Positions 1 through 40,179 of a stretch of 64,000 bases of DNA are shown here, piece after piece. A program made the translations under genes and the position numbers. The notes below the pieces were generated by a model that saw only the letters and a list, made by a program, of their open reading frames with translations, ran no database searches and had not been told where the DNA came from. The stretch's first letter is position 1, and every line of letters starts with the position of its first letter. The stretch spans positions 1-64,000 of the forward strand of contig JAQMWT010000322.1 in NCBI GenBank assembly GCA_029834535.1, read 5' to 3'. The DNA comes from Chrysophaeum taylorii (lineage: Eukaryota > Sar > Pelagophyceae > Pelagomonadales > Pelagomonadaceae).

Positions 1-714
1 GAAATTCGGCCAGTGGAAGTAATGTCAGGTCGCGATACTGATCCGGCGTTCCGTTCGCACTTCATTGCTGGGCAATTCTGAGCGCTCGCGGACGAGCGTC
101 GAACTTGCTCAGGCCTCACCGCATATGAAAGCATCTACTCTCTCAACGATGTTATTCAATTGACCATCCAGATTTCCAAGATTCTGGAAGCCAACCTGCC
201 AACATCGAAGAGGCGATTAAGAAGGAGAAGGAAAGGAGCGCACCACGGATGAGGAGAGAGCAGCAGCAGCAGAGGCAGCAGTTGCAGCCAGTCAACGGGT
301 TGGTTATGTTACTGACTCGGTTGGAACCTGGCTACCACAGGGGATAGATCCATACGCGTCAAGCAATTACGACGTGCCTCAGTTGCGGCCGGCATGGTAG
401 TTTAACCACGACAACGGTGTGTCCTGTGCCGGACAATCCCTCGAGGAAGAGGCGTGCTGCTCAGACGTTGACGAATGCGGGTTTTCCAGCAACGCCAGAG
501 GACAGGAGCAATACCGACGGACGCTTTTAGCTGCAGCAGGACAGGCTTCAGTGACTCAGCTAGCGCCGCGCGTTGTGCAACAGCCGCAGGTGGTCTACAC
601 AGCAGCACAGGTGCCAGGTGCAGGTCAACAGCAGCTGGTTGCAGGCACTCAACAGCGTTTGGTTGCAGGCACTCAACAGCAGGTGGTCCGAAGGCAGCCC
701 GCAGTGCAGCGGAC
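1..714 (+). pseudogene. Ty3/gypsy gag, C-terminal part with zinc knuckle (copy A)
   Basis: Bases 1-420 match the capsid and zinc-knuckle coding part of the inverted copy (39390-39840) but with several single-base losses that break the frame. From about 419 one open frame continues through a Gln/Val-rich stretch containing repeated VAGTQQ-type peptides. The intact equivalent in the other copy has a knuckle of the form C-x2-C-x7-H-x4-C, an unusual spacing. Role by family: virion-like particle protein that binds the RNA genome. Non-functional here. Confidence 0.8.
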
Positions 715-2280
715 CGCTCAGACCTCGGTGCGCCTGGAGGATCTGACTACGGCTCTCAACACGATGAACTTGATTCGTCAGGCACAGCAGACGGCTCCAC
801 CGGTTAGAGGGCAACAGTCTCAGAGAGCGAACCCTAGCCAGCGCAATGATGGTGTCGCCGCTCAGTGGCTTGAAGTGCTTGGCGAAGATCAGGATGACAC
901 TAAGCGAGCGGACTACTGCACTGTGCAGTATTCTGAGCTCATGGAGGGCAACGTGTATGACGATGACGATGTTGGGGGCGATGATGATAGCTTCTCTGCA
1001 GAAGGCTATTCCCCTGGTGACCCCATGGAACCTCCTTCCTTTTTGGTCATCACTGAAGATGCATGGGTGGAGGAGCAGGAGCAAAGTACCGAAGTGACTG
1101 GAGTTGCATCTAGAGTTCCCTCGGAAGACGAAGATAATCGTGACGGATTGGGGTATACGATTGTTCGTGTGGGACAAGATACCTTGGTTGCTATGGATAT
1201 AGTGCCACCGAGGGACGACTGCGCCGAGCGTTATGCCGCTCACCCTTCCATCTCTTCGGATTTCGAGAGTTTCTGCCCTCAGACTGCGTTGAATACCACT
1301 CAGGATCCCGACCATCGTGAAAATAAAGCCGTGAGGTATTGCACGAGATCCGCCTCGTCGACGTATGTGCCTGTGACTGTCTCTTCGCTAGATGGTTCGA
1401 AATATTCCATCATCGCTGCCGGTTTGGATGGCATGGCTGATTCCCCCATCGATCACCGCTTGTATCGCAAACTTGATCGTGACGGCAAAATCATCTATCG
1501 TCAGCCACTCCCCTACATTACTCTAAATGGATCAGGAGGTTCGGGAGCTGCTATTCGAGAATGGGTCATTCTCCGGATCTCCTTGGCCGACGACATCCAT
1601 GCTGCTCATGTTCTTCGTTGGTCAAACGAATGGGCAGTTACTATTAGGAGCACGAGAATTACGACTCTTGGGTACGATTTTGGATTATGCGACAGAGCTA
1701 TTTTTCGGCGTTCTGAAGTGACCATTGGAGTTCTCAAGAATCGGACTTCCGCCTCGCCACAAGACCAGCATGGAATTGTCCTTTACAATGATGCATTCGA
1801 TGCGACTCCGCAGGTAGTGCAGATGTTCCCGACAGCTAAGCTTGCTGTGCAATACGGAAATATCCAAACTTGGACGCCAGTTGGTAAACCGTGGAGTTAT
1901 GACAGTCTACTGCTATTCGTATCAGAGCGAGTCACCATCACGTTCCTCCGGTGATCAGACTGCTGAAAAAGCGGAAGACCAACTTAAATGCCCTGCAGAC
2001 GAGGAAGATATCATCCCTCATTTCGCGTACGTGACGAGTACTCGATTTCTTCTTCCAAGCCAACCGTACTTCTTGGAGATGGAGTGCGATGTGCCGCTGG
2101 AAAAGGGTCACGTATTCCGACCTTATCGGTCACTCCCAGATCTCCGCCTTGTAACTGGTTCCTATTCATCGTATTGCGCTGACGAGCCCAACGAAGTTCA
2201 TGTGGCTGTGGACACATTGGTGACGAGGTATCGACCCCGAAGTCCCGGTGGTCGAAGGCGAGATCATGCCGCATGAAGGA
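715..2280 (+). pseudogene. Protease-like region and protease-RT linker (copy A only)
   Basis: An open frame from gag continues to 1954, and an overlapping frame runs 1842-2276 after a frameshift. Residues around 1400-1450 (AGLDGMADSPID) followed about 80 residues later by LGYDF have the spacing of a retropepsin active site and its second conserved LGxDF motif, but the D-S/T-G triad is not canonical. The following part (FLLPSQ, then VFRPYRSLPDLRLVTG, then VHVAVDTLV) resembles the beta-rich linker that usually follows the protease in Ty3/gypsy polyproteins. An acidic, low-complexity stretch lies at 940-1100. This whole region is absent from the inverted copy. The protease assignment is inference; the linker is somewhat firmer. 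Confidence 0.5.
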
Positions 2281-2479
2281 TGTCAACATGCAGCTAGAAG
2301 CCATTGATGACGTGTGTCATGCCACTCTTACGGCTGCTGTTGACGACAATGAAGTCGAGGAGGATGTCTTGAGTGACAGACCTCCTCCTCAGCCACCTCC
2401 AGATGAAGAAGTGACAAAAACACCAGAAATGGAGATGGAGGCGACTGATAAGGAGCTGCCATCTAAGCACGCCTCCTTG

Positions 2480-3200
2480 GTTTGGATACTCACCACCTAC
2501 ACCTTTGTCGTCGTCTACTTTGCTGGCGCTGGAGGATCAACGTTGGGTATCCGGCGATGCAATGAGCTATATGGCAGTTCATTTCGCATTGTCCTGGCTT
2601 TGGATGCTTGTCCTCAAGCCCGAGCCACCTTTGAACTCAATTTTCCGAAGATTCCCTATGTTTTGCATGAGTTGGGAAATCTCATCGTCGTACATACGAC
2701 TTGGTGTTGTCGTATTTACACTCAGATTTTGGAAGCATTCTTATTTTCACGCCAGTCCGCCGTGTATCTATGGATCGACTGCCAATTTGCACTACAGGGA
2801 CGCACGCAAGGGCGCTACTATTACTTCTTGGGTCCTGCGTCATTTCCGCAACGCACCTTATGTGATTGGACGATGGACGCTCGAGCAGGAACCATCAGTG
2901 ATCCCTTTTGACCCAGCGCTGGGATTTACAGGTGGTCACCCGCTCATTATAGTGAACAGTTCCTCTACGCGCACGGCTATCGGCCCTGCCTTCACGGTGA
3001 CGCGCAATAAGCTCCGCATAGGACCTCATTTCTCGAACACCCGTCCACTCACGTTGCAGATGCACCAGGAAATTATGACCGTTCCTGCTACGTGGCAATG
3101 GGGTGCGACAGTTTCAGAGACAAGCTATGAAGATGCTTGGCAGTATGGTGCCACCCGCGACTATGACGCGGATTGCGCTAGCAGTGCACAATTCGTTTGA
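2480..3200 (+). pseudogene. Retrotransposon-borne C5 cytosine DNA methyltransferase domain (copy A, broken)
   Basis: Translation shows C5-methyltransferase motifs in order: motif I FAGAGGSTLG (about 2518-2550), a motif II-like LDACPQARATFELNFP, motif IV PPC with the catalytic Cys at 2757-2765, a Glu-containing motif VI candidate (WTLEQEP), a PAFTVTRN segment like the PApTIt stretch after small target-recognition domains, motif IX (RPLTLQMHQE) and motif X (GSMVPPATMTRIA). By family the enzyme would transfer methyl from S-adenosylmethionine to C5 of cytosine in DNA. Lesions against the inverted copy: a 1-bp loss just after the HELG codons (near 2675), an in-frame 150-bp deletion between two TTTTG repeats at about 2910 that removes motif VIII, and a 2-bp loss near 3123. 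Confidence 0.85.
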
Positions 3201-3419
3201 ACCTTCACTTCGAAATTTGGGTAAGTTGCGGAATATTGCGACGACCACGCTAGCCCAACCTGATCACCATATTCTACGGTTTTCACCTTTTGCTGTAGAG
3301 TCGCGCATTCCAACGCTCGACCCTGCCACTCGAAGTGTATCATGGATTGCGCCCGGTGAACTCTATTCTCCTGCGAGTCCTGCACCATCCGCTGCTGCCA
3401 CCATCGCCACTGCTGTTAT

Positions 3420-5190
3420 GCAGAGCAACCAAGTTGATAACCAGCCCTCCGCAACTGCTGAAGAAGAAGGCACCGCGAAAGAGCGACCACCGTATTTCAA
3501 TACGTACGACATTCCGTGGGCGGACGCGCCTCACGACGAACATGGTCAACCTTCACCGGTGATGCCTCCTCATTTAGCGGATCAGGAGAGCATGCAGGTC
3601 ATCCCTCCGACCGTCGCGCAGGTCGAAGAGGTGATGACTTGGTTGGGTATTACAGAGCATCCTGCTTTAGATGATGACGAGAAGCTGATGATGAAGCATT
3701 TAATCTCGTATTCGTGGGCATTTTCGATGATGTGATGAGACCTGTTGATTCACCTGAAGTGACGCTCCGGTTCAAAGAGAGACCCGACTCCCGTCAAACT
3801 CTCGCCATATCGGTTGTCGAAAGAAAAGATTGAATGTTTGCGGATGCAGATTGAAGCGTGGACCCGAGACGGAGTTACGAATTCTCCATGGGGTTTCCCT
3901 TGATGTTGCCTAAGAAAGGTGCTGAGCCTGGCACTTCCAATGCTTACAGAGCAGCTGTCGACCTACGGCGCCTCAATGCATTGCTCAAGGATGATAGCTG
4001 GCCGAGTGTGAGCATGGCTGACGCGTTGATGTTTCTCATCGACAAGTTTTGTCGTTCCAGTTTGGATATTCGTTGGGGCTATCACAATTTACGATTGTCG
4101 CTAGATGCACAAGATGTGGTCACCTTCACTAGTCCTCTGGGAGCGTACAGCTACATGCGTCTACCTTTGGTCTAACCAGCCGGAAGTTTGTTTGCAAGCA
4201 GTTGAACACTGACTTGTCGAAATGGATATATCGTGATCTCGTGGCATATATCGACGATATTCTCGCCGGTCACGCAGATACAAAGAATCACTTGCAGTGC
4301 CTTGTGCAAGTTATTCCCCATCTCGCCTTGAAAGCGCCAAGATCAAGAAGATTCATTTTATGCAAGAAGTCATTGAGTTTTGGGTCATTTATCTACCCCG
4401 AACGGACTTCTTCCATCACCAAGGTCTTTAGAAGCCATCAGACACATGCCAATTCCTGGCACTTTGTCGGATGCTGACCCTAAGAAGCAAGTGCGATCTT
4501 TCCTTGGAATGGGGAGTTTTTGCCGGCGTTATGTAAGGAATTTTGCGAAAGTTGCAGAGCCATTAAGACAACTGACGTTGCCGGACGTGAAATTCAAGTG
4601 GACGAAAGAGTGTCAGGAAGCTTGGGATGCCATCATCGAGGCTATTGTCACTTCGAAGGGCGTCTACCATCCTGATTACTCGTTACCTTTTTACATTCGA
4701 ACTGATGCTTCCGCGCATGGGTTGGGTGCTTACCTATTTCAAAAGGTACCAGTCGTTGACGACGATGGAAGAGAATCGAAGAGAGAGCCATCGAGTACTG
4801 GAGTCGAACCGTGCCTAAGTCGATGAGGAAGTACCTCGGCGCTTGGAACTCCTCGCAGTACTCTCTGCTCTCGAAAATTTCCGATTTTATATCGAAGGTC
4901 ATCAGACGAAGTTAGAGACGGATCATCGTAATTTAACGTTTCTTCGGGATTCGAATCATACGTCTGGACAGTTAGCACGATGGGCTATGCGGCTTGCGTT
5001 CGACCGGGAGCTCGGATACAAGCCTGGAAGCTCCCCTGGCATGCGTATTCCGGATTGTCTGTCGCGCAACCCTATCGACAAATTGATCGAGAAAGATGAA
5101 GACGGGGAACCGATCAATGAAGCTTTTTTGATTTTCCAAGAAATCCCCACCGATGTCCTGGCACAGCTTGCTTCACCTTCTCTTCGGTGA
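3420..5190 (+). pseudogene. Ty3/gypsy reverse transcriptase-RNase H (copy A, frameshifted)
   Basis: Fragments in several frames (3420-3735, 3858-4175, 4202-4477, 4380-4826, 4843-5190) together cover a Ty3-type RT and RNase H. Visible motifs: GVIRPANSPWGFP region, LDIRWGYH, the catalytic box AYIDDILAG (about 4240), the FLGMGSFCRRYV thumb region, RNase H carboxylates in IRTDAS (about 4700) and ETDHRNLTF (about 4915), and DCLSRNP at the end of RNase H. At least five frameshifts separate the pieces, so this is a pseudogene. Confidence 0.93.
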
Positions 5191-7022
5191 CGATGCCTAT
5201 GCTGACGGACAGCGGACCCACCGCAGCTATGGTAGCAGTTAGTACGCGACAGAACGTACAACCGCCTCAATTCTCGTACGAGTCTGAGCCAGTTGACTCC
5301 GTCGAACGTCTCCCTTTTGCGGATCAAGCGGAGGATGAGATCACTCTCGATGAGATAGCGAAAGAACAAGCTGAGGATGAAACATGCAAGCGCATCAGAC
5401 GAAAGCTCGACTCTGAACAGAAAGATCAAGACGAGCAGTCATCCGTACCATATGAGGTTGATGACAACGTGTTGTATAAGGTCGATGATTCAGCTTCTCA
5501 ACGTCTTATTGTGGTCCCTCAGTCTATGCAAAAGCGTGTGATCGCCATGCATCACCGAGGCTTGTTCGGAGGCCATGTAGGACGAGACTCCACAGCGAAT
5601 CAAATCTTAGAACGGTATTGTGGCCAAACGTCTCATCATCCGTTAATGAGTTCGTCAATGCCTGCATTATTTGCCAGAAGATTCGATCCACCATGCCTAG
5701 CGCCATGGCTTGCTCTGTCAACCGAATCGCGTCGGAGATTGCTATGTCCTAGGTATGGATTTGATTGGACCTCTGCGAGGCGCTGACCTGTACACGTATA
5801 CTCGCAATGTGCGATGCAGCATCACATTTCTTGAAATTAGCTCTGATCAACACGAAGCATGATTATTCGATTTTGAACGCGTTTGTGGACAAGATTTTAC
5901 TTGAGGGATGTCTCCCACGGTGTATAGTCACGGATAATGGAAATGAGTTCGCGAACAGGTTATTTCGCACGTTTGTTCGTCAATTCAACGTACGTTATCG
6001 TACTACCCTTCCGTATCACCCTCAGAGTAATCATACTGAGCGTGTCAATCGATTCATCAAAGCTTTCTTGCGAGCTGCGATCGATGAACAGCGTCAGCCA
6101 GACTGGTCGAATTTCCTCCCATATGTGTCATTCATGTACAATAGGATGTACATTCCGGGAACGAAGATTTCACCTTTCATGATGCGTACTGGCAAGCAAC
6201 CCCTGTTACCACCCGATTACAATCTTTTGAGTGAACAGCGTGATCTACCGCAATCACGTCATCAGATTTTGGTGGACTTTAAGAACAAGTTTGAATTTTA
6301 TAGTCGACTCGTTACGAGCTCACCAGAAAGCACAGGAGCCAAAAACTCAACTATGATGCCCACCAAATTGACATCCAGTTTCCCCAGGTGATTATGTTCT
6401 GCGTTTCGTGCCTCAGACGCGCCACAAGCTACGGCCCATTTGGCGCGGGCCGAACATAGTTACCAGATAGATCTCTCCCGTCGTTTACGAAATTCAAGAC
6501 GTCAACGACGATGATGCTGAATCGGTTGTAGTATCTGTACAACAGATTGTGCCTTTGAAAGTGCCAACCATCGACACTTCTTCCGCCCCCCTGCATTTAC
6601 CTTCGGACCGCGACCGGTTCAAACATGTTAAGTTCGTGATTTTCAGGGTGAAAGGACGATCCAACGCGTGGAAGAAGCGTATCTATGTTGCCGAAGTCTA
6701 CGAAGAATATGACCACGACAATGATACAGTTGCGCTTCACTATTATACCGATTTGGGACCGCGCGATGATCCTCGCGTCTTTGATCCTACTAAGCCTCTG
6801 GCTGAGCGACGCTTAAGACCAGAATATAAAGATGCGGACGGAGGTAGCTTCACACGTTTACGACCAAACATGGAGGGCTGTGAACCCTGTGTGACTGATT
6901 TTCGCCCGGATGAAATCGATGTCCTCGTCACTAACTTCGGTCTCCACAGCAACAAAGTTCCTGCTGATGTAGCTGAACGAGCTTATCGTACCATTCGTGA
7001 GCGTGACCTTCGTCACCCTTGA
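5190..7022 (+). pseudogene. Ty3/gypsy integrase with conserved C-terminal tail (copy A)
   Basis: The zinc-binding His pair lies near 5545-5580; the Cys pair and the first core Asp (MDLIGPL, about 5757) are split by frameshifts. The second core Asp is in VTDNGNEF (about 5930) and the Glu in NHTERVNRF (about 6035). After the DNA-binding region (frameshift near 6320-6480) an open stretch 6549-7022 encodes a tail (KFVIFRVKGR, then VAEVYEEYDHDNDTVALHYYTDLG) that is also present in element B. The stop codon at 7021 precedes the purine-rich tract and LTR. Confidence 0.92.
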
Positions 7023-7058
7023 AGTCGAGGACGACTTCATCTCAAGTAGGGGGCTCCT

Positions 7059-7387
7059 GTGGCAGTAACGCCCATTCCCCCCACTTGCCTGCCTGCCACC
7101 TGACTTACCCTGATTGTTGCCCTGGTATTGACCTTGCACTTATGGGGGGGTGTCATCTTGACACCCTCACCTGCGCTTCCGCTGAACCCAATGTACCGGG
7201 CATTTGTATTGCTTTCTTGCTGTCTTCTTGATATTACCCTCATTTGATTGTCCGATTTCGTGATGGCGTAAGGTATTACGCTGAGATCGGGCGTGTGGTG
7301 GTTTCACCCACGGTTCGGGTTGGGAGAAAGGGCTGTTGAGGCCCCTGGTCCGGCCAGGAGGGGCGGGTATCTGAGAAAACCACTACA
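7059..7387 (+). repeat. 3' LTR of Ty3/gypsy copy A
   Basis: A 329-bp block starting TGTGGCAGTAAC and ending CCACTACA, so it has TG...CA ends. It matches, in reverse, both ~330-bp LTRs of the inverted copy (33885-34214 and 41505-41834). The purine-rich AAGTAGGGGGCTCC stands directly before it, as expected for a polypurine tract. Confidence 0.92.
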
Positions 7388-7513
7388 TCTTCTCTTCTCA
7401 TCGTCATCCGTTTTTTGCGTGATCATGCTCCCGCTATCCCCCTGCTTATTGACAACGCAAGCGCATTACACGTCGCTAATCACTACCGAACCTAAAATAC
7501 CGGTATCAAAGGT

Positions 7514-8478: not shown

Positions 8479-8595
8479 AAATTTGTGTGTTGTTTTTTAC
8501 CGGAAAAAAAACAAAAAAACCAGGTTTAAACTACCCCTGTAAAAAACCGAGAGGTACGGTACTAATCACCCTAAAGTCAGTGCTCCCTCTCGACA

Positions 8596-8930
8596 TATCA
8601 ATTTGCGAGAATTTCGGATTCGAGACTACCAGGCCAACTCGGTCACTCGTCCCCTCTGGTGTCCTACTCACGACCAGATCGCTGATCATTTTTCAAAACT
8701 TCTTCCCCGCATCTTGTTCCGCAAGTTCAAGAAAGCCGACGGTCTTCATTTCGCCGGGATGGGGTTCGCTCGGTTGGGCAGAACGCGACGGACAGGTCGA
8801 TTGTTCGTGGACCAACACGTCCGCGGCCTGCGACGCTTTTGCACGACCTCGCATAAGACCGCGCGCAGTGGCGGTACACCATCAACAAGTCCGTCCTCGT
8901 CCCTCGCCTCTGCCCCAACTGCGTGATTTT
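8596..8930 (+). pseudogene. Ty1/copia RNase H C-terminal relic
   Basis: The translation contains PTHDQIADHFSKLLPRILF, the signature near the end of copia RNase H (usual form: QlADiFTKpLp...F). Nothing of the upstream reverse transcriptase is seen, and the frame soon becomes low-complexity. It is a short fossil of a copia element unrelated in position to the one at 61.4-64 kb. Confidence 0.65.
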
Positions 8931-9547: not shown

Positions 9548-11300
9548 GTGCGCGTCAAAGGTGAAAAGATCAATAAGAGCCACCCTGAGGTGAGGTACAA
9601 ATACGAAGAAAAGTTCGATGTGCCATGGAAGGATGCGCCACGCGATGCGGACGGTGTACCGTTACCGCAGACTCCCGAGCACGTCAAGGACAATGATGCG
9701 ATGAAAGTCGTAATTCCGACGAAGGAAGAAGTTGAAAAGGTTGTTCGAGATTTAGGAATTCCCGACAAGCCGCATCTGGATGATGATGCGAAGAAGATAT
9801 TGAGCCATTGCGTGCAATACGCGTGGGCTTTCTTTGATCCGATTATGAGACCAGTGAACTCGCCACCGGTTTCTCTACGCTTTAAAGACGCAAACCCACG
9901 ACCGATCAAGATGACGCCTTATAGGTGACGCCAGCAAAGCTCGAGTGTCTCAGAAAGCAGATCACTGAGTGGTGTCGCGATGGAGTCATCCGACCGGCGA
10001 ACTCTCCGTGGGGATTCCCTGTACTGATGCTGCCTAAGAAGGGAGCAGAGGCCGGGACGTCGAATGCTTTTCGCGCTGCAGTTGACTTGCGTCAGCTCAA
10101 TGATCAGCTGGTCAATGACAGTTGACCGAATATTCGTCAAGATGATGCTTTGGCTTTTCTTGCCATGCGCCGTTGGCGGACGTGCATTGATATTCGATGG
10201 GGTTATCATAACTCACGTTTGGACGCAGCTGCTCAGGACGCTGTTACGATGGTTAGTCCACTTGGAGCCCATAGTTTCTTGCGTTTGCCTCTAGGAGTAA
10301 AAACAGCAGGAGCTCTCTTTTGTAAGCAGATGGCTAGCGATTTGTCCACATGGATGTATAAGGACTTGGTCGCGTTTGTCGACGATATTATGATGGGATC
10401 GGATGAACTCCATCGACATTTACAAGTTTTGATTGAAGTGTTGTGCCATTTAGCACAGCGAGGATATAGTGGACGAACTTCGAAGTTCCACCTCCTCAAG
10501 GTTGAAATCGAGTTTTTGGGACATATTTCGACTCCGGAAGGCTTGAAGCCGAATCCCAAGACGTTAGAAGCGTTGCAGCAGATGCCGATTCCCGGTACGT
10601 TGCCCAATACGTCCCCGAAGACCCAGATTCGATCTTTCATTCGTATGAGCAACTATTGCCGCAGACATGTGAAGAATTATTCGAAGATTGTGGAGCCGCT
10701 TACGCGATTGTGTCTTGAAGGCGTTAAGTTTGAGTGGACGCCTGAGTGCCAAAAGGCATGGGACACGATCATCGAAGCTGTGGTGGACTCTCGCGGAGTA
10801 TATCATCCTGACTACGATCTTCCTTTTCAGATCCGCTCGGATGCTTCCAAGGATGGTCTGGGTGCGTATCTTTTTCAGCTCGTGGAAATCAAGGACGAAA
10901 CCGGCAAGGTGACACGAGAGGAACGAGTAATTGAGTATTGGAGCCGAGCTGTGCCGAAAGAGATGCGGAACTATGAGCCTCGCCGGCTAGAGCTACTGGC
11001 AGTTATTCTGTCTCTTGAGCATTTCCGCTCTTATATTGAAGGTCACAAGACGATCCTTGAAACAGATCATCGCAACTTGACGTTTTTACGAAAGGCGAAG
11101 CACTCGTCTGGGCAGTTGGCTCGATGGGCGATGCGGCTCGCCAATTTTGATCCTGAATTGGGTTACAAGCCAGGGAAGTCGCCGGGAATGAGCATCCCTG
11201 ACTGTCTCTTTCGCAATCCTATAGATCATGTCATCGAGACGGACGAGTTTGGTGAACCCTTGAACCACGCGTATCTAGTCTGCCAAGAACTCCCTCGTTC
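9548..11300 (+). pseudogene. Reverse transcriptase-RNase H of element B
   Basis: Starts within a pre-RT segment (KFDVPWKDAPRD) equivalent to the start of RT in copies A/C. An in-frame stop lies at 9926-9928 and another break at about 10125-10150. From 10150 a long open frame carries IDIRWGYHNS, the catalytic box AFVDDIMMG (about 10375), RNase H acidic residues in IRSDAS (about 10835), ELLAV and ETDHRNL (about 11065), and DCLFRNP. Role by family: copies element RNA to DNA and removes the RNA strand. Confidence 0.92.
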
Positions 11301-14585: not shown

Positions 14586-15345
14586 ACCTCTTCTTCACCA
14601 CCATCTCATCAAGTTACTCTTTCCGCTACTCTTCCACCGTACAATTCCGCCCAGAACACTCTCCACATCCTTGTCGATGGAAAGTCGCTTCCTGCTTAGT
14701 TTGATCCAGATTTCGCTCGCCTAGTTCAATCTGTGAGGGCGTTGAGATAGAAAATTTGATTTAGGGTAAGTACCCCATATCCTAGGGTTAGCTCTCTTAC
14801 TTCTCGCGCACTTTTTAATTCAGAAAAACGCTGTGTTATTCACACCGTGCTGTCCTCATTGTTAGAGTACAGAACGAGGGCAGACTACCACTGCCCTCAC
14901 TCTGCTGAAGGGTAACACTGTTGAAATTACTGTTCTCTAGGCCAACTCTCTGGAAGATGAGATTCCAGGGAAAGCAGATGGAGATGTCAGGGTGACATCT
15001 CCAAGTTCAAAGCAAGAGGGAGATAAGTGGGGCAAGGGCGCTACCGCTACACTCTCTTTCGAACCCCCACTTAGCAGTCGACCATTAACTAAATAAATAC
15101 GCCCTGTACCTCGGGGTTCACATGCATGCATGGCGACAGGCGTCAAATTCCCCTCGACGCACCTTCAAGCGGCCCTCGTCTTTTTCCCCAGTGATTCTGA
15201 TTCTGCGCACCACGGCACGTGGGTGGTATCAGCCTACGCCCCATACAATGGGCTTAGTTAGTTCCTCCGCCCAGACCGAAAATTTAATGGCAAAACAGAT
15301 TTATTACTTTCGCTCACAACAGTCGGTAACGGTCGACACGACAAA
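14586..15345. other. Non-coding stretch upstream of the O-methyltransferase
   Basis: No convincing gene on either strand. It contains a CACTTAGCAGTCGACCATTAA motif near 15070 like the dispersed CTTAGCAGTCGACATTTAAAG repeat seen at 21.9-22.4, 33.3, 42.0-42.4 and 61.3-61.4 kb. This suggests old transposon-derived sequence. The last 100 bases are the probable promoter of the gene at 15346. Confidence 0.5.
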
Positions 15346-18675: not shown

Positions 18676-20931
18676 TTAGAAGTCGGAGTAGTAGGTGGAG
18701 GCGGTCGGCGGGGAGATTGTGTCCCGGAGCGAGGCACGGACGCGATCGAGGCTGGAAACGTCGAAGGCAGCGCGGTCGTGGCTGATGTCCTTTTGGCTGA
18801 AGCGGTCGAGGCGAGCCTGGAGGTGGTCGACGTCGAGCATGAGCTGCATGGCGATTTTCTGGGTGTCTGTTGTCGCTGCGTTGGCGTCGTTCCCCGAAGA
18901 ATTAGAAGAAGAGGTAGCACGAAAATTATTCGCGTTGGTGGTGGTGGTGGTGGTGTCTCTGTTATTTCTTTTGTGTTCCTCGCGCTTGCGGAGGGTGTCT
19001 CGTACCTTGAGGGCGTTGTCGAGGACGTCCTTGACCATCGCGCTGAAGGCGTCCATGATACGCGAGGAGACGGACGCCCGGAAATTGGTGGTGGTCGGGA
19101 GTTTGTCTCGCCAGGTATTGTCGAAGTCGTCGATCAACCAGCGAAAGGCGTCTCGATCGAGGTAATCCGAGGGGGCGACGGGACGGGGCTCGTTGGTGAG
19201 GATGTATTTAGCAGAGACGCCCTTGACGGCGCGAAGGGACTCGGCCGTTTTGTGCGAAAGTTCGTCGGCGAGGCGGTCGAGGGCCCTTGTTTTGATGGAC
19301 CTGACGGGTCGGAGGGCGCTCTGATCCAAAGCGAGGAAGAAAGCGTCGATCGGAGCTTCCTCCGGCAACGCTCGGTCGGTTCCGCGTAGGGCTCTGGCGA
19401 CCTTTGGGGGCGTCGCGCGGTTCAAGGCTGCCGCGAGGTCGTGGACGTCGTAAGCGAGCTGCGCGAGCTGGTGGGGAGCGAGGTCGGCGTCCAACGCTTC
19501 GGCCGAAGCTCGGAGAGTCTTGGAGACGACGTCGAACGTGAGGCGGACGAGGTCGTGGGCTAGAGGTCTCAGGAAGGCGCCGTTCTTGGCCGGGTCGGGT
19601 TCCCATATATGGTCGACGCAGCTCAAGAGCTCGCGGACAAAAGGGGAGGGCGAAACCTCGCCGCCGCCGACGACGACGAGATCGTCTTTCTCGGGGAAGA
19701 GGACGGCGTCGAGGCGGGCGACGACGTCGACCTTGACGAGCTCAAAGTAGACCGGAAGGTTCCAGTTGGCCTCGAGGCGCCGGGTCGCAGGGTGGGCGCG
19801 GAGGCGCCGCGAGACGTAGGCGGCGCGGGCTGAGGTGGCGGAGGTTTCTCCGGTCGCGACGCGCGAGAGGTCCTCCAAAAAGCGGAACGTAGCCGAGTAA
19901 CACCGGTGGGCCGTGGCCGCGATCCCCAGGTCGAAGATCGAGGCGAGCTTCTCGCAGATCGCCGCGGCGATGGGGCGCCAGACGCCGTTGCACACGAGAT
20001 CCACGGCCAAGAGGGAGGGCCGAGGGTCGCCGGGCGCCATCGCGGTTTCGCACGCGACGAGAGCCGGTCCGCACCGCTCCTGCACGAAGTCGAGGGTCGC
20101 TGCGTAGATCGAGGGCAGGCCCGCACAGCTCCCGCGGTCGGCGCCGTCGAGCCGACCCTGGGTGAAGGTGACCGCGAGGAACTCCCCGAGCAGGCGCTCG
20201 CCGTACCGGTCCTCGAGCCGGCGCCCGAGGCCGAGCGCGGCGGCCGCTCTCAGCGCCGCGCGGCGACCCTCGTCGTCGCTCGCCCTGTTCGTCGACGCGC
20301 AGCAGAGCCGCTCGAAGGCTGCCTCGACGCCCAAAATCGTCGCGGCCTCGGCCTCGTCCACGCGCTGGGAAAATTCGTGCATCTTCGTCACCAGAGATCC
20401 GTCCGAAACGATTTCGACCGCCGACGACAGCTGCGCGCGCAGCGATAGAGAAGCGTGTGCCGATCGCTCGACGTCGCCCTCCTCCTTCTCGAGCTCGCAC
20501 AGCAACGCCTCGAACCGTTCGATCGCCGACGCCTCGCGCCGTTGCTTACGCGCCGCCCGGCGCTTCTCGACCTCCGCCTCGAGCTCTCGACGACGCGACC
20601 GCGCCTCCTCCAGCGCCCTGGCGAGATGGCCGTGCAGCTCGATGAACGCGTCGCGCGATTCGCGCACCTCCAGCGTCAGCGACTCGGCCACCCGAAAAAA
20701 TTCACCGTATTTTGACGACATGAGCTCGAACATCGCCTCGGAGATTGCGCTGCGCTCCTCCTCGAGCGCGCGCTGCATCTCGGGGATTTCCAGCTCGCGC
20801 GACTTCCCGTGGAGCGCACCCAGTATCTCGGACCCCTCCAGCCCGCCGTCGAGGGCCTCGCCGATCCACGCGCGAACACCCCCAACACCCTCCGGCGACA
20901 TCGGCGTCGGCTGCGCCTCCACCGTCGCCAT
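18676..20931 (-). CDS. COG2: Conserved oligomeric Golgi complex subunit 2
   Basis: A 751-residue single-exon protein, close to the usual COG2 length (about 740). Residues 55-110 match the COG2 N-terminal pattern: a helix with EEERSAISEAMFELMSSKYG, then FFRVAESLTLEV and a long charged coiled coil to about 190. Around residue 400 the segment NWNLPVYFELVKVDVVARLD is the hallmark of the COG2 C-terminal domain. COG2 belongs to lobe A of the COG tether, which holds vesicles for retrograde traffic within the Golgi. A low-complexity Thr/Asn/Ser insert lies near residues 665-695. The ATG is only about 10 bases from the end of a Helitron-like element, so its 5' region is transposon-derived. Confidence 0.82.
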   Translation of the reverse strand: MATVEAQPTPMSPEGVGGVRAWIGEALDGGLEGSEILGALHGKSRELEIPEMQRALEEERSAISEAMFELMSSKYGEFFRVAESLTLEVRESRDAFIELHGHLARALEEARSRRRELEAEVEKRRAARKQRREASAIERFEALLCELEKEEGDVERSAHASLSLRAQLSSAVEIVSDGSLVTKMHEFSQRVDEAEAATILGVEAAFERLCCASTNRASDDEGRRAALRAAAALGLGRRLEDRYGERLLGEFLAVTFTQGRLDGADRGSCAGLPSIYAATLDFVQERCGPALVACETAMAPGDPRPSLLAVDLVCNGVWRPIAAAICEKLASIFDLGIAATAHRCYSATFRFLEDLSRVATGETSATSARAAYVSRRLRAHPATRRLEANWNLPVYFELVKVDVVARLDAVLFPEKDDLVVVGGGEVSPSPFVRELLSCVDHIWEPDPAKNGAFLRPLAHDLVRLTFDVVSKTLRASAEALDADLAPHQLAQLAYDVHDLAAALNRATPPKVARALRGTDRALPEEAPIDAFFLALDQSALRPVRSIKTRALDRLADELSHKTAESLRAVKGVSAKYILTNEPRPVAPSDYLDRDAFRWLIDDFDNTWRDKLPTTTNFRASVSSRIMDAFSAMVKDVLDNALKVRDTLRKREEHKRNNRDTTTTTTNANNFRATSSSNSSGNDANAATTDTQKIAMQLMLDVDHLQARLDRFSQKDISHDRAAFDVSSLDRVRASLRDTISPPTASTYYSDF

Positions 20932-21255
20932 TTATTATTACGAGTGCAGGCCAGTAAGTTCACCTAGTCCCAATCTCTAAACCCCAGTAAGTTCACCTAA
21001 TCGCAGTAAGTTTCATATAAGTTCACCTGGTCAGTAAGTTCACGTAGCTCACACCCACTCCTTTGAGCTCGTCGCTCTCACCCCCGCCAATCCAAGCTGC
21101 TTTGTTGATCCGCACGCGCCGCCAACCCTTGAGTTTACTCTAAAGCCCCCAGTAAGTTCACCTGGTCCCAGTAAGTTCACCTGGTCACTCAGTTCACCTA
21201 GTCCCAATCTCAAACCCCAGTAAGTTCACCTGGTCCCAGTAAGTTCACCTACAGT

Positions 21256-21830
21256 GCGCGTGTAGACGCCGGGAGGGGGCTTATCGGTATTGCGCAGCAC
21301 GTGTGGGGTAGGGTGGAGTCTTCGACTCAGAAGAGCATATCCTCGGGGTTGCCGATCGACAGAGAGCCGCGTAGAGCTGGACGTGACAGAAGACGGGCTT
21401 GGGCAAGAGGATGCCGACCTCGCGGGGCGTCTGGCCCTGGTTCTTGTTGATCGTTTGGCGTAGGCGGGCCTTAATTGGAGGAGCCTCGGTGACAACGACA
21501 CGATCGATCATGTATCTGGTACCGTTGCAGTGGCCGTGGGACGGGTCGAGGTTGCGAAGACTTTAAGCTCGCGATCAAAGTCAGCATGCCGTTGGTTGTC
21601 AGGGAGTTGAAAACTCGACTGTAAAGAGCGAGGCGTCGTCTTCCGACCCAACCTAGTCTGCCGAAAAGAACTCCGACGCCTCGTCTCCGGGAAAAAAAGG
21701 CCGCGGTCATGCGCGCGTTGTCAGCATCGACAACATCGTTTCGACGGGGCGTGAGAATGGCGCGCCGAAAGAGCCGCCGCGGGTCGTGGAAATAGTCTGC
21801 GAGGTCGCCGTAGACGGCTTGGAGGATCAA
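21256..21830 (-). pseudogene. PIF1-type Helitron helicase C-terminal fragment
   Basis: Encodes, over more than one frame, VYGDLADYFHDPRRLFRRAILTPRRNDVVDADN and then TINKNQGQTPREVGILLPKPVF. These correspond to the conserved C-terminal helicase motifs of Helitron-encoded PIF1 proteins (usual form TINKSQGQTl..vGiyLp.PVFshGQLYVAlSR). Upstream helicase motifs and Rep are absent. The frame is broken, so no product is expected. Confidence 0.75.
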
Positions 21831-21879
21831 TGTCTGGCTCGTGGGCCTACATGATCCTTACCCTAAATCGGGGGACAAA

Positions 21880-22430
21880 CAAACAACCCACCCACGTCTT
21901 TCATGCTCCCCACAAACACCCCCCCCTCTTAGCAGTCGACATTTAAAGACAAACAAACAACCCACCCACATCCTTCATGCTCCGCACACACACCCCCATC
22001 TTAGCAGTCGACATTTAAAGACAAACAAACAAGCGGGGCCCGTCCTCTCTTCGCCTGCCCCACGACTCGGCGATGACCCCGACTAGGTCCCGCGTACTTA
22101 TCTCTGCCCGTCAGGCACATCCCTCCTACCCCACAAACCCACCCACATCCTTCATGCCTCCCCCCACACACCCCCCTCTTAGCAGTCGACATTTAAAGAC
22201 AAACAAACAAACATCTGTCGATTTAATTTAGTTAGGGTGAAAGAGCCGCCGCGGGCCGTGGAAATAGTCTGCGAGGTCGCCGTAGACGGCTTGGAGGATC
22301 ACTGTCTGGCTCTCGCGCCTACCTGATCCTTACTCTCGCGCCTACCTTATCCTTACCCTAAATCGAGGGACAAACAGACAGACCACACACACCCCCCTCT
22401 TAGCAGTCGACATGTAAAGACAAACAGACA
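21880..22430. repeat. Cluster of CTTAGCAGTCGACATTTAAAG repeats
   Basis: Short repeats of the form CACACCCCCCTCTTAGCAGTCGACATTTAAAGAC (shown in two parts: CACACCCCCCTC and TTAGCAGTCGACATTTAAAG) recur at about 21925, 22000, 22175 and 22390, separated by CCCACATCCTTCATGC-type sequence. The same units occur at 33.25-33.5, 41.95-42.4 and 61.34-61.44 kb. Confidence 0.8.
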
Positions 22431-22610
22431 GACAAACAGACAAACATCTGTCGATTAGTAGTTAGGACCCTCTCCTCTCCTCTCCACGAGTTAATTACTT
22501 ACTCCCTGTCCTCAATCAACACGACCCGTTGATAATAGGGTAAATGTCACATTGATAGTAATATCCCCTTGCTACTAGATAATAATAGAGGCATCAACGC
22601 GGACGGAGAG

Positions 22611-24345
22611 ATGATGTTGCGGCGACGTAAAGTTGAGGATGAAGAGGAGGATGAGGAGGAGGAGGAGTTGAAGGTGGACATGCAGCACCCGCGCGAGTCG
22701 ATTCTGGTGACGACGCCGTCGCTCGCGTCGCGGCGCGGGATCGATCCGAAGGAACTGCGGGGGGAAACCCGGCGGACGTTGGCGCTCGACGGGTTTCTTC
22801 ACCGGAAGACGCGGTACGGCGCGTGGAAGGAGCGGTACTTTCGGACAGAGGGGCCTTACTTGCTCTACTACACGACGAGTTTAAACGAGATAAAGGCGCG
22901 GCGGTTCGACGCGCGCAAAAAGAAGCTCGGACCGTACGAGTACGACTCGACGGGAAAAGCCTATTCGGAAATGTTCGACCTGCGGTCGCCAGGGACCGAC
23001 ATTTCGTACGGCGCGCACGGCGCGTTGATCGTGCTGTGCTTGGGGGGCGCGAAGAAGATCGAGGTCAAGGCGGACTCTGAAGCGGACGCGCGCAGATGGG
23101 TCGAGACGCTGGAAAAAATTCGGGCGTTCAACGAGGCGCGCAAGCAGCGAATCGGAACGTTTTGCGTCGAGATCGACGGAGCCTACGTGGTGGGCCCCAA
23201 GGTGATTCACCGGTGCGAGTGTACAATCAACGGTCCCGAGGCGAGCGAGACGTCGTCGGCGAGTCGGGTAGAAGGAATCGACGACGTGGCGTACGAGAAC
23301 TTGGACGAGTCGCTCGAGGCGGTGTCGAGGGCTCCCGACGTCAAGCTCCGTGCCGAGATTCCCGTGTACCAGGCCTCGTCGGTGTTCCGGGTCACAATCC
23401 GGAGTTTGACGGAGGAAAGACAGCGGAATTCGCTGCAGGGACCGGTCGCGATTTCGAGCTCGGAGGGCGTCGCGTCGCGCGACGTGTCGCTCTTCGAGCT
23501 CCAGGAGGAACAGGCCGAGGTTTTTTTTCAGGGGATGGGGGAAAGCAAAGCAAAGCATGGCGATCACGGGAACCCCGCCTCGGCTCTCGAAGCCGAAGCG
23601 GAGGGCCAGGTCGTCTGGCCGTCCAAGGCGCCCGACGGCTCGAGCCCCGCGCCCGGGGGGTTCCGATGGTTGGCGCTTTTCGAGGAGGATAGCAGTCCCG
23701 AGGACCAAGCTCCTCGCGTGCGCGGCCTCGTGCACTGCCGGCTCCGATACTGGGAACACGTGGTCCAGACGATCGACCTCGTCGGCGCCCACGACAGGTA
23801 CGAAGCCGACGACGACTCGGACCTCACCGAGTTCAAGCTCGATCTCCTCTCGGGCGGGATGAAGCGGCTCGAGGCGGTCTACGAGGACATGTCGGCCGCG
23901 GGGGACGCGGTCATGCGGCTCCTCCAGTGGGAACGACCTCTCCTCTCGCTGGCGTGCTGGGTTTTTCTGACGACGGCAGTCGCGACGATGCCCGACGCCT
24001 CGACCCTCGTCGTTTTTCCGTTGTTCGCGCTCGTCGGAATCTGCTTTACCCTTCCGCATGCCATTTCGAACCGCCAGTTTCAGGTCGAGGGCGACCAGCA
24101 GTTTGCCAAGGCCGCCGACGAGACCCACCGCCGCGACATCGCCGAAATCAGCCTGGCCGTCGTCGCCGCGCGGGACTTGGTCGCGCCTGATTCTTCCTTC
24201 TTCGTTTCGACCGATCCCTACGCGGTCGTCGTTCAGGAACCACCCCCCTCCAAAAAGCTCCCGCAGATGCTCGTGGGTCTCACCTCGGTCAAAAACGGCA
24301 CCCTCTCCCCCGAGTGGGTCCCGGGAGCCCCCGAGAAAAAAAACT

Positions 24346-24378
<33 letters not shown>

Positions 24379-26114
24379 GATACGCGTTTTCTTCTTCTTG
24401 TTCGCCGTCGCGTCCCCCCGAAGAGGGCTCGTCGCCCGTAGCCGTCGACCAGAACGAGGCCCTCAAAATGGTCGTGGGCGCCCACTTGAGCGAGCGGATC
24501 CTCAACGACGTCCTCCCCGAAGAACCGGGGGGTCGCAACGCTGTCACCCTCTCGGAATCCGCGACCAAAGACTTTGGCGACGGCGCCGTCGTCAAGCCGC
24601 CCGTCGACTTCCGCTCGCGCTGGCGCGTCTCCTCGACCCTCCTGAGCCCCGCGACCGCGAGCTGGACCTGGCCCATCCTCCAGGAACAGATCGGCCACTC
24701 CCTCGTCCCCTGGCACGACGCCAAGGGGCGCGTCTTGATCGAAATCTACGATCGAGACGTCGCCTCGGACGACACCTTTTTGGGTTGCTGCCGCATCCCG
24801 ATCGCCAAGCTCTTCTCTTACCAACACCACCTCGACGAGTGGTTCCAGCTCGAGCGCTACCCGGACGGCGACATTTCTTCGTCCGATAAGAATAATAACA
24901 AAGCGACCACCTCGAAGAAGACGGCGAAGAAGAACGCGGCGATCGACGCCTCGACCGCCGCGAACTTTGGCAGCGTCAGGATCTGCGCGCGCGCCCGCGT
25001 CGTCGACTCGGCCTCGTCGCTCGACCTCTCGCCACCCTCCGAAAAGCATCGACACCACAGCAGCTGGCAGCATGCCCAGGCAATCCGCCGCAGCATCCTC
25101 GAACCTGAGATCAGAATCAGAGACGATAAGAAGGCGGGCTACGTCGGACAGTACAAGGACGTCGCCAGATCCCTCAAGTCGATGCAAGACTCGGTCCTGA
25201 TGCTCGCAACCTACTTGGAAAGGTTCGTCGCCTTGTGCACCTGGGTCCACCCCGCGAAAACCCTCTTCGTCGCCTTTGGCCTCGCCGCCGCGGTGTTGCT
25301 CTGCCTTGTTATCCCCAACCGCGTTTTAGTTGCCTCCCTCGTCGCCAAACTCTTCCTCAACGGTCTCTTCCTCAAACTCAGAGGCCAGGACAACTCGGAA
25401 GTCCCCTTCAAGGACCCCACCTATACCCAAATCTCTAACCTCCTCTCCTCCCTTCCCAACGCGACCCAGCGCGCCGCCGCCTACAAGATCAAACGCGACG
25501 TCTGGACTTCTCAATTCAAGCGTCACGAAAAGGCCGTCAGAATTAGCCTCCAATTCGCCTTTCGCGTCCGCTGCCAGATCCACGCCTGCATCATCTCCAA
25601 GACATCCACCCTCGCCGGCTTCACCTCGGCGCCAACCTACGGCGCCATAGACGAATCAACCCGCTCGACCGCCGCCGATTCTGCCCGCGCGCGACGCCGC
25701 CCCCAACAGGCGGTCGAAAATAAAAAGTGGACCTACGTCTACGTCGTCGTCGTCGACGCCATGGTCATCATCTGGCAAAACGTATCTGCCGCCGCCGACA
25801 ACAAAAAGCCCTTACTCTCGCTCCACATTGCCGGCCCGCCCCTCGTCGACGAGCCCCCGCCCTCGACCTGGCCCGACCGCCCCCGCGGCCTCACCCTCGT
25901 CTCCCTCGCCTCGAGACTCCCGCGCGCATCCAAAATCAAGGACTTCTACCTCGCCCTCGCACCCTACGACGTCGAAACCTTTGCCGCCGCCGTCCACTTC
26001 GAAATCCTCGACTCGGCCAACTGCCGCGACCACCACAAGCCCACCACCCATCACTTCTGGCGCCGATCCGCCCCCTTCTTCCATCCATGGCAACACCAAC
26101 ACCATCAACACTAG
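22611..26114 (+). CDS. PH- and C2-domain membrane protein (MCTP-like)
   Basis: About 1167 residues in one exon. Residues about 52-176 form a PH domain (GFLHRKTRYGAWKERYFR at its start, ending with the conserved Trp of RRWVETLEKI). A hydrophobic pair spans about 443-483. A C2 domain covers about 506-753, with an Asp-rich insert (DDDDDDGGGGG) and a second half typical of C2 (VLIEIYDRDVASDDTFLGCCRIP). Another hydrophobic pair lies at about 873-925 and resembles the C-terminal membrane region of multiple-C2 MCTP/FTIP proteins. By family it would bind phosphoinositides and, with calcium, phospholipids, perhaps at membrane contact sites; this is inference. I chose the ATG at 22611 since upstream codons in the frame lack an ATG. 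It lies between two Helitron-like insertions. Confidence 0.75.
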
Positions 26115-30155: not shown

Positions 30156-31020
30156 CAAGTGCAGGCCAGTAAGTTCACCTAGCTCACACCAACTCCTTTG
30201 AGCTCGTCGCTCTCGCCTCCGCCAATCTAAGGCGCTTCGATCCGCACACGCCGATAACCTTTGAGTTTGCTCTAAAAACCCTTTACTCTAAAAAACCCAG
30301 TAAGATCACCTGCTCCAACCCCAGTAAGTTCACCTGGTCCCAGTAAGTTCACCTACAGTGCGCGTGTAGACGCCGGGAGGGGGCTTATCGGTATTGCGCA
30401 GCACGTGTGGGGTAGGGTGGAGTCGTCGACTCAGAAGAGGATATCCTCGGGGTTGCCGATCGACAGAGAGCCACGTAGAGCTGGACGTGGCAGAAGACGG
30501 GCTTGTGGGCAAGAGGACGCGGACCTCGCGGGGCGTCTGGTCCTGGCTCTTGTTGATCGTTTGGCGTAGGCGGGCCTTGAGGGATACAGGTTGGAGGAGC
30601 CTCGGTGACACGACACGATCGATCATGTATCTGGTACCGTTGCAGTGGCCGTGCGACGGGTCGAGGTTGCGAAGACTTTAAGCTCGCGATCAAAGTCAGC
30701 ATGCCGTTGGTTGTCAGGGAGTTCAAAACTCGACTGTAAAGAGCGAGGCGTCGTCTTCCGACCCAGCCTAGTCAGCCGAAAAGAACTCCGACGCCTCGTC
30801 TCCGGGAAAAAAAGGCCGCGGTCATGCGCGCGTTGTCAGCATCGACAACATCGTTTCGACGGGGCGTGAGAATGGCGCGCTGAAAGAGCCGCCGCGGGTC
30901 GTGGAAATAGTCTGCGAGGTCGCCGTAGACGGCTTGGAGGATCACTGTCTGGCTCTCGCGCCTACCTGATCCTTACTCTCGCGCCTACCTGATCCTTACC
31001 CTAAATCGAGGGACAAACAA

Positions 31021-31059
<39 letters not shown>

Positions 31060-31081
31060 TCTGTCGATTAGTAGTTAGGAC
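30156..31081 (-). mobile_element. Array unit 4
   Basis: About 926 bases, shares with unit 3 the one-base loss in GGTGACACGACACG, suggesting the two derive from one another. Standard junctions on both sides; extended CAGA tract near 31020-31060. Confidence 0.7.
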
Positions 31082-32151
31082 AAGTGCAGGCCAGTAAGTT
31101 CACCTATCTCTAACCCCAGTAAGTTCACCTGGTCCCAGTAAGTTCACATAGTCCCAATCTCTAACCCCAGTAAATTCGGTGTAACTTACACTGTAAGCCC
31201 ACTCGTGCTCACACCCACTCACCCCACTCTCCTTCGAGCTCGTCGCTCTCACCTCCGCCAATCTAAGCTGCTTTTATCCGTACACGCCGCTAGCCTTTGC
31301 GTTCACTCTAAAAACCCCAGTAAGTTCACTTGGTCCCAGTAAGTTCACCTGGTCACTAAGTTCACCTAGTCCCAATCTCAAACCCCAGTAAGTTCACCTG
31401 GTCCCAGTAAGTTAACCTATAGTGCGCGTGTAGACGCCGGGAGGGGGCTTATCGGTATTGCGCAGCACGTGTGGGGTAGGGTGGAGTCGTCGACTCAGAA
31501 GAGGATATCCTCGGGGTTGCCGATCGACAGAGAGCCACGTAGAGCTGGACGTGGCAGAAGACGGGCTTCGCCAAGAGGACGCCGACCTCGCGGGGCGTCT
31601 GGCCCTGGCTCTTGTTGATCGTTTGGCGTCGGCGGGCCTTAAGGGATACAGGTTGGAGGAGCCTCGGTGACAACGACACGATCGATCATGCATCTGGTAC
31701 CGTTGCAGTGGCCGTGCGACGGGTCGAGGTTGCGAGGCGTCGTCTTCCGACAAAACCTAGTCAGCCGAAAAGAACTCCGACGCCTCGTCTCCGGGAAAAA
31801 AAGGCCGAGGTAAAGAGCGAGGCGTCGTCTTCCGACCCAACCTAGTCAGCCGAAAAGAACTCCGACGCCTCGTCTCCGGGAAAAAAAGGCCGCGGTCATG
31901 CGCGCGTTGTCAGCATCGACAACATCGTTTCGACGGGGCGTGAGAATGGCGCGCTGAAAGAGCCGCCGCGGGTCGTGGAAATAGTCTGCGAGGTCGCCGT
32001 AGACGGCTTGGAGGACCACTGTCTGGCTCTCGCGCCTGCCTACCTGATGCTTACTCTCGCGCCTACATGATCCTTACCCTAAATCGAGGGACAAACAGAC
32101 AAACAAACAAACAGACAGACAGACAAACATCTGTCGATTAGTAGTTAGGAC
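31082..32151 (-). mobile_element. Array unit 5 (with internal duplication)
   Basis: Contains a local tandem duplication: the stretch GAGGCGTCGTCTTCCGA through AAAAAAAGGCCG occurs twice (about 31735-31806 and 31817-31892) with deletion of the neighbouring GAAGACTTTAAGCTCG segment. Standard junctions on both sides. Confidence 0.7.
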
Positions 32152-33182: not shown

Positions 33183-33505
33183 TATAAGACAAACTATCTC
33201 CGCCCGTCAGGCACATCCCTCATACCCCACAAACCCACCCACATCCCTCATACCCCACAAACCCACCCACATCCTTCATGCTCCCCACACACACCCACAT
33301 CCTTCATGCTCCCCGCACACACCCCCCTCTTAGCAGCCGACATTTAATTTTTAATTTTAAAGACAAACAAACCCCGACTAGGTCCCGCGTACTTATCTCC
33401 GGCCGTCAGGCGCATCCCTCATACCCCACAAACCCACCCACATCCTTCATGCTCCCCACACACACCCCCCTCTTAGCAGTCGACATTTAAAGACAAACAT
33501 TTAAA
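33183..33505. repeat. Repeat cluster right of the array
   Basis: Tandem CCCACAAACCCACCCACATCC-type units and CTTAGCAGTCGACATTTAAAG repeats, with CCCCGACTAGGTCCCGCGTA at about 33373, which also occurs near 22080, 41960 and 42105. Non-coding. Confidence 0.75.
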
Positions 33506-33884: not shown

Positions 33885-34214
33885 TGTAGTGGTTTTCTCA
33901 GATACCCGCCCCTCCTGGCCGGACCGGGGGCCTCAACAACCCTTTCTCCCTACCCGAACCGCGGGTGAAACCACCACACGCCCGATCTCAGCGTAATACC
34001 TCACGTCATCACGAAATCGGACAATCAAAAAAGGGTAATATCAAGAAGACATCAAGAAAGCAACACAAATGCCTGGTACATAGGGTTCAGTGGAAGCGCA
34101 GGTGAGGGTGTCAAGATGACACCCCCCCATAATTGCAAGGTCAATACCAGAGCAACAATCAGGGTAAGTCAGGTGGCAGGCAGGCAAGTGGGGGAAATGG
34201 GCATTACTGCTGCA
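33885..34214 (-). repeat. 3' LTR of copy C
   Basis: 330 bp. On the minus strand it starts TGCAGCAGTAATGCCC and ends CCACTACA. It aligns end to end with 41505-41834. Confidence 0.93.
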
Positions 34215-34230: not shown

Positions 34231-34249
34231 GACGAAGTCGTCCTCGACT

Positions 34250-40166: not shown

Positions 40167-40179
40167 CTCAGCACGGTCC

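Follow-up and report, generated by a model that had tools for sequence, protein, structure and literature searches.

The window analysed here covers the opening 64 kb of contig C322 in the genome of Chrysophaeum taylorii (70.8 Mb in 697 contigs). A profile search of its open frames identified eukaryotic genes, alongside which lie two copies of a Ty3/gypsy retrotransposon. Copy A (positions 1-7388, plus strand), delimited by alignment to copy B, has lost its 5′ end at the contig start and closes with a 3′ LTR (7058-7388) that is 92% identical to the copy B LTR. Between these limits it contains an aspartic protease proposed from the motif LDGMADS (1385-1444), a region for which no Pfam protease match was found; a predicted C5 cytosine methyltransferase (MTase) domain (2426-3216; tblastn with the MTase of a better-preserved genomic copy, L040, E = 3.9e-129); reverse transcriptase (RT) and RNase H, read from translations in several frames (3855-4826, with YIDDIL at 4247-4264); and an integrase core (5765-6391) whose residues correspond to those of the rve match in copy B.

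Copy B (33885-41834, minus strand) is flanked by two LTRs of about 330 bp each (5′ LTR, TGT...ACA, 41505-41834; 3′ LTR, 33885-34214) that are 95.4% identical over 327 columns, with the 4-base direct repeat CCCA outside them. Its gag-like region consists of two overlapping open frames (39072-41229), recognised by kinship to the gag of genomic copy L039, as no gag profile matched the copy B frames above cut-off. The predicted MTase domain (38105-39052, 95.6% identical to L040) is followed by RT, RNase H and an integrase zinc finger (35493-37961; PF00078, PF17917, PF17919, PF17921) and by the integrase core (34250-35671; PF00665 and PF22938). RVT_1, RNase H and the H2C2 zinc finger exceed their Pfam cut-offs, as does the integrase C-terminal domain PF22938 (28 bits, cut-off 27), and the integrase core PF00665 falls just under its own (32.1 bits, cut-off 32.6). 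The order of RT, RNase H and integrase, together with the LTRs, identifies the element as Ty3/gypsy.

Both window copies are defective. Relative to the 316-aa MTase of L040, that of copy A is broken into four pieces by three frame changes and lacks about 50 residues, and that of copy B is a single frame with one in-frame stop. Copy B has also lost by deletion the approximately 1.7 kb that carry the putative protease in copy A, the alignment between the two breaking at A 717/2390 and B 39085/39088. Repeats, tandem or dispersed, lie on both sides of copy B (31000-33500 and 41945-42415) and have CACATCC-rich units in common, so the insertion point may have been a repeat array.

Other retrotransposon remnants are present in the window. 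A related gypsy RT (9593-10908, plus strand) shares 50-56% identity with L039; no MTase was detected with it, and a recognisable gag or protease upstream is also absent. A tblastn search with the RT/RNase H of a Ty1/copia element (L073, of family 2, described below) found the RNase H end of a family 2 remnant at 8564-8749 (plus strand), continuing at 14586-14693. These two pieces adjoin in the protein and are separated by the sister gypsy element; their identities are 82% and 78%, and a third, weak piece (40%) lies at 7346-7489. Long intronless frames occupy 18679-26111 and 42920-58974, among them COG2, glutathione synthase, an AAA/Vps4-like protein, a 1531-aa leucine-rich repeat protein and a 1449-aa frame without a Pfam match, which suggests an intron-poor host with GC-rich genes. 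A 696-aa frame at 56887-58974 (minus strand) joins a NusG domain to a SAP DNA-binding domain, a pairing that appears unusual.

Identity of the methyltransferase domain

A preliminary description of this DNA had placed a C5 MTase inside a Ty3/gypsy element, with the copy A domain beginning at 2480. A domain does lie there, and it begins at 2426, about 55 nt earlier. The motifs named in that description that were sought occur in both copies, on the plus strand in copy A and the minus strand in copy B: motif I, FAGAGG (2519-2536 and 38942-38959); the catalytic motif IV, HASPPC (2748-2765 and 38711-38728); AFTVTRN (2988-3008 and 38315-38335); and motif X, GSMVPP (3139-3156 and 38165-38182).

Against the Pfam profile PF00145, the window copies score 15.4 bits (copy A) and 18.3 bits (copy B), both below the cut-off of 22, and the domain is spread over five window pieces, three of which give no match. 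Better-preserved copies elsewhere in the genome exceed the cut-off (L040, 33.3 bits; L039, 30.9 bits; L011, 31.3 bits), and L040 and L039 also match the PHROG family phrog_116, ‘DNA methyltransferase’, at 44 bits (E = 2e-11) and 45.4 bits (E = 7e-12), respectively. Because these relatives exceed the Pfam cut-off and match phrog_116, the domain is real and chance motifs were rejected as an explanation. A C5 MTase within a Ty3/gypsy element, as first proposed, is thereby supported, with the significant PF00145 matches residing in L040 and L039 and the window copies themselves remaining under the cut-off. Contamination by a free phage gene was likewise rejected, the domain sitting within LTR elements. 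Matches to TIGR00675 (dcm) are weak, at 22-23 bits, far under that profile’s own cut-off of 100.65.

In an alignment that took in eight phage enzymes and two host genes, motifs I (FAGAGG), IV (ASPPC) and X (GSMVPP) of the gypsy domain fall in the expected columns. Conservation was scored in 25 unique copies among the fetched loci (L009-L072), picked for the absence of stops: SPPC is kept in all 25, and motif I and GSMVPP in 24 each. Motif VI reads LEQEP instead of the usual ENV, and LExEP is found in 25 of 25; this departure leaves PF00145 membership standing and makes full activity less certain. Among PDB sequences one cytosine-specific methyltransferase was matched (E = 0.58 by profile and 0.033 by sequence), which is not significant alone, and an AlphaFold model built from the gypsy MTase alignment (A1) had a pLDDT of 27.9, too low to inform on the fold. 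Taken together, the profile matches and the order of the motifs make it nearly certain that the predicted domain is a C5 cytosine MTase.

Place in the element, spread and selection

Genomic copy L039 encodes gag, putative protease, MTase and RT in a single open frame of 2070 aa; the corresponding frame of L040 (1493 aa) covers gag, putative protease and MTase and extends to the start of RT. Gag is recognised here by kinship between copies, its sole profile match reaching 15.1 bits, under cut-off. These frames show the MTase to be fused in frame between the putative protease and the RT of a Ty3/gypsy clade.

At least 112 separate genomic places match the gypsy MTase (138 matches to the copy B domain, of which 114 rows represent the 112 places and 24 short pieces went uncounted), and a query from a second subfamily gave at least 134 matches, mostly at the same places. 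The genome searches score the best candidates only, and every copy count is therefore a lower bound. The same element copies occur at near-equal positions on the contig pairs C6/C268, C10/C297 and C25/C521, which suggests that these are duplicated or haplotype contigs and that copy counts are slightly inflated. Among 30 copies compared, the closest pair is 99.4% identical over 3.4 kb, indicating that the family moved recently, in relative terms.

RT matches (a list of 128 rows minus one short row, the second fragment of a copy on C359) were compared with a list of MTase matches from which short post-MTase rows and repeats of the same places had been omitted. An MTase match lies at most 3 kb upstream of 79 of the 100 RTs of this family (at least 78% identity), and of none of 27 RTs of a sister clade (58-64% identity). 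The MTase thus marks one gypsy clade; the sister clade might still have one that is highly divergent.

Two of the 21 family RTs with no such match were read. One belongs to window copy A, which does carry the domain, so the upstream-match method misses some. In the other, on C335, the post-protease stretch ends 732 nt before RT, compared with 1840 nt in L039, and is out of frame with RT; this spacing identifies it as a deletion copy with a broken frame that has lost about 1.1 kb. Two more, on C284 and C510, have a same-strand MTase match 4 to 5.3 kb upstream, and some sit close to a contig start. Intact copies lacking the domain, which the preliminary description had named as evidence against it, were thus not encountered among the copies read (copy A and C335), and may occur among the remaining 19.

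Selection on the domain was estimated from the 25 stop-free copies, of which 21 form subfamily I and four form subfamily II. Between the subfamilies, the median dN/dS of the MTase is 0.069 (range 0.053-0.108, 84 pairs) at a dS of about 1.55. Within subfamily I the median is 0.190, with values up to 0.709 (210 pairs); the subfamily II median of 0.538 comes from four of six pairs, in which changes are very few. When L039 and L040 were compared along their length, the MTase had the lowest ratio (0.066), followed by the start of RT (0.092, 146 codons), the putative protease (0.104), gag/NC (0.233), the post-protease stretch (0.246), and the linkers preceding the protease (0.283) and following the MTase (0.479). 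No ratio was obtained for the initial part of gag, whose dS is saturated. As dS is near saturation throughout these comparisons, the ratios are approximate, but their order is clear. As a dN/dS of about 0.07 resembles that of RT and lies below that of gag, the MTase appears to be a selected part of the element. We consider it very probable that it is a working component, whose activity is predicted.

A second methyltransferase and the origin of the two enzymes

A different C5 MTase, which the preliminary description had not covered, occurs in a Ty1/copia family of the same genome (family 2), likewise just after the protease. A genome-wide search with PF00145 gave 57 matches, of which two are host genes (L001 and L002) and 45 fall at family 2 places; six of the 45 were read (L003-L008), along with longer stretches on C120 and C582 (L041, L042, L073). 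The order in family 2 is a gag-like frame, a protease motif (DGGAS), the MTase (PF00145, 38.6 bits in L041), an integrase-like region and a copia RT, and the whole order, RT included, was seen at one copy, on C120, where RVT_2 scores 129.6 bits in L073 downstream of the MTase. The integrase match is weak (rve 13.4 bits, cut-off 32.6) and was judged by place and residues. The family 2 enzyme has PCQ and ENV motifs and lacks a clear motif X. It gives at least 101 matches in 91 places, and its dN/dS over motifs I to VIII (median 0.138, range 0.102-0.296; 21 pairs from seven loci) points to purifying selection.

The preliminary description had called the gypsy enzyme one of phage or algal-virus type, and the phage part of this has weak support: a phage family gives the best profile match, and a mycobacteriophage enzyme is the closest neighbour in the tree (support 85/82), in a comparison from which Dnmt1, Dnmt3 and Dnmt6 references were absent. 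The tree was built from 17 of 18 aligned rows, the short F2_L007 (190 aa) being omitted and the row from phage Wanda having 207 aa. The best PHROG match of the family 2 MTase is also phrog_116.

In phage genomes, a tblastn search with copy B at 1e-5 found nothing; the MTase of L039 gave 97 weak matches at E up to 10, and among the best 15, the annotation reads (cytosine) methyltransferase or methylase in 14 and is missing in one. The copia MTase gave 51 phage matches, the best of which (3e-6) is a DNA methyltransferase. In the 30 phage matches listed, identity is about 22-31% and spans 35-52% of the query, with E above 1e-3 in nearly all. The phage C5 methyltransferases align with the gypsy enzyme at motifs I, IV and X. 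Against the PDB, the copia MTase reached E = 0.36 by profile and matched nothing by sequence. A search of 5.8 billion proteins with both MTases and the gypsy polyprotein returned no matches at E up to 0.01, and no related loci were confirmed in viral contigs (both MTases) or in genome contigs (gypsy MTase only).

Whether the two element enzymes form a single clade was neither shown nor rejected in the 17-row tree (p-AU = 0.106), and independent capture by the two families is therefore not established. Profile comparison found no relation between the gypsy and copia MTases, at low power (Neff about 1), and, at similarly low power, none between either of them and the two host genes, except for a weak hhalign match of the gypsy alignment A1 to the DNMT2-like gene over motifs I to IV (probability 4%). 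A broader scenario, which we regard as unlikely, is that gypsy and copia elements each captured a C5 MTase independently from a phage or virus-like source at the same post-protease point, with the element enzymes supplying de novo methylation that a DNMT5-type enzyme would maintain.

Host enzymes, precedents and possible function

Of the two host genes recognised, one is DNMT5-like (L002, C621:15462-18998), a single intronless frame of 2086 aa that combines an MTase (PF00145, 65.4 bits) with SNF2 (PF00176, 37.1 bits) and probably contains a RING-like zinc region, RING matches being under cut-off. The other is DNMT2-like (L001, C634:7324-11301) and carries PPCQPHTRQ, which we take to be a DNMT2 hallmark. 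The DNMT5-like gene is the sole candidate DNA-methylating enzyme among the recognised host genes, a statement that leaves aside 10 of the 57 PF00145 matches and any intron-rich DNMT genes, which six-frame searches miss. Loss of DNMT5a depletes methylation in a diatom (PMC9998398).

For a footprint of past methylation, transitions were counted in the 166 of 435 pairs among 30 gypsy copies that share at least 93% identity. C/T transition rates are 0.049 at YpG, compared with 0.033 at YpA, 0.044 at YpC and 0.062 at YpT, and on the other strand the G/A rate after C is 0.0485, compared with 0.0349-0.0539 in the remaining contexts. There is thus no CpG transition excess between gypsy copies in these 166 pairs, and lasting CpG methylation of old copies is not visible; brief methylation, methylation in other contexts or good repair are all possible. 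The two window elements have CpG observed/expected ratios of 1.02 and 1.08 and TpG plus CpA values of 1.15 and 1.11; for six host genes of the window the corresponding ranges are 1.34-1.46 and 0.67-0.92. This difference would fit mild old CpG loss from the elements, but GC content (about 51% versus 59-69%) and codon use also differ, and we therefore draw nothing from it.

Capture of an MTase by a gypsy element is not new as such. The charophyte precedent mentioned in the preliminary description holds, and its carrier too is a gypsy element: in KnitGypsy-Dnmt3 of Klebsormidium nitens, a C5 MTase likewise forms part of the gypsy Pol polyprotein and is likewise under purifying selection, with Ka/Ks below 0.2, compared with about 0.07 between subfamilies here (PMC5890265). 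As described in that 2018 paper, the Klebsormidium element differs in having a DIRS-like repeat layout, whereas copy B has an ordinary LTR pair with a 4-base flanking repeat; its MTase is a Dnmt3, and the gypsy MTase here was compared without any Dnmt3 reference. SymbioDIRS-Dnmt3 and SymbioLINE-Dnmt of Symbiodinium are similarly retrotransposon-borne C5 MTases at high copy number, carried by DIRS and LINE elements rather than by LTR gypsy and copia elements, and Symbiodinium Copia elements are described there as lacking a DNMT (PMC5890265). DIRS elements with adenine methyltransferases also pair a DNA-modifying enzyme with a retrotransposon, but these enzymes are structurally unrelated and act on adenine rather than cytosine, and the elements use a tyrosine recombinase (PMC5890265).

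In a 2025 paper, ‘Orphan’ eukaryotic DNMTs resemble the present enzymes in lying outside the ancestral DNMT families, some of them in retrotransposons, and the section on them names no gypsy element (PMC12344493). The same text, citing the 2018 work, places DNMT3 members in ‘LTR Copia and DIRS’ elements; Copia may here denote the Klebsormidium element that was named Gypsy in 2018. A 2019 opinion article states in general terms that stramenopiles, among other groups, have gypsy and DIRS elements encoding DAM and DCM (PMC6338049), and the MTase of a Sola DNA transposon reported from Ectocarpus is of the adenine or N4-cytosine type rather than C5 (PMC12477816). Our literature search, in which subscription papers were mostly missing, found no ochrophyte gypsy carrier, no detailed copia carrier and no case of gypsy and copia carriers together.

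The explanation that we favour, and consider somewhat probable as a whole, is that the in-frame MTase, which is under selection, is packaged with the element and methylates new cDNA; the cDNA step on its own is plausible and falls slightly on the doubtful side. The MTase would be translated as part of Gag-Pol, in keeping with the single open frame observed, and would probably be freed by the protease and packaged in the virus-like particle beside RT and integrase. Its substrate would be the new double-stranded cDNA while this resides in the particle or in the pre-integration complex, before or at integration, such that a fresh copy could arrive resembling methylated resident DNA. The host DNMT5-like enzyme could then keep the mark, and the element might benefit by looking like resident DNA or by tuning its expression. 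Methylation of cDNA was proposed for DIRS elements by de Mendoza et al., who found de novo CG methylation in yeast for two DIRS enzymes; the LINE and Klebsormidium gypsy enzymes showed no activity in the same 2018 yeast test, which the authors call inconclusive (PMC5890265).

An alternative that we think unlikely is that the enzyme mainly targets the chromatin of the host, in trans or where the element inserts, creating a favourable methylation state rather than marking its own cDNA. With at least 112 MTase places, genome-wide activity could result, and Symbiodinium, which has such elements, is described as having a mostly CG-methylated genome (PMC5890265); against this, the CpG ratios given above for the six genes and the two elements do not indicate heavy CpG methylation of genes, although methylation in other contexts or good repair could escape such a measure. 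Less likely again is methylation of RNA, whether the element transcript, a packaged tRNA primer or an RNA:DNA hybrid. C5 enzymes such as DNMT2 act on RNA, and the missing CpG transition excess would agree with an RNA substrate, a possibility that de Mendoza et al. raised for the LINE enzyme (PMC5890265). Phage DNA methyltransferases nevertheless account for the nearest profile and for the weak matches listed, and the host DNMT2-like gene, the sole RNA-specific reference compared, matches only at the 4% hhalign probability noted above.

A catalytically dead protein kept for a structural or nucleic-acid-binding role is improbable: the divergent motif VI would be compatible with it, but SPPC and motif I are retained in 25 and 24 of the 25 stop-free copies and dN/dS is about 0.07. 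That the domain is a chance passenger, derived from a host gene fragment that a few copies picked up, has a negligible likelihood and is refuted, even though both window copies are broken and under the Pfam cut-off, by its in-frame fusion with gag and RT, its dN/dS between two subfamilies and its presence at no fewer than 112 places.

Cytosine methylation is usually a host weapon against transposons. Writers borne by elements of two LTR superfamilies, with the gypsy enzyme selected as strictly as RT, suggest that the mark can also help the element, and both gypsy and copia elements may mark DNA to their own benefit. It is a long-standing question where new marks originate when a host has a maintenance enzyme and no evident de novo enzyme; if the DNMT5-like gene is the sole host candidate, this genome would make the source of new marks testable.
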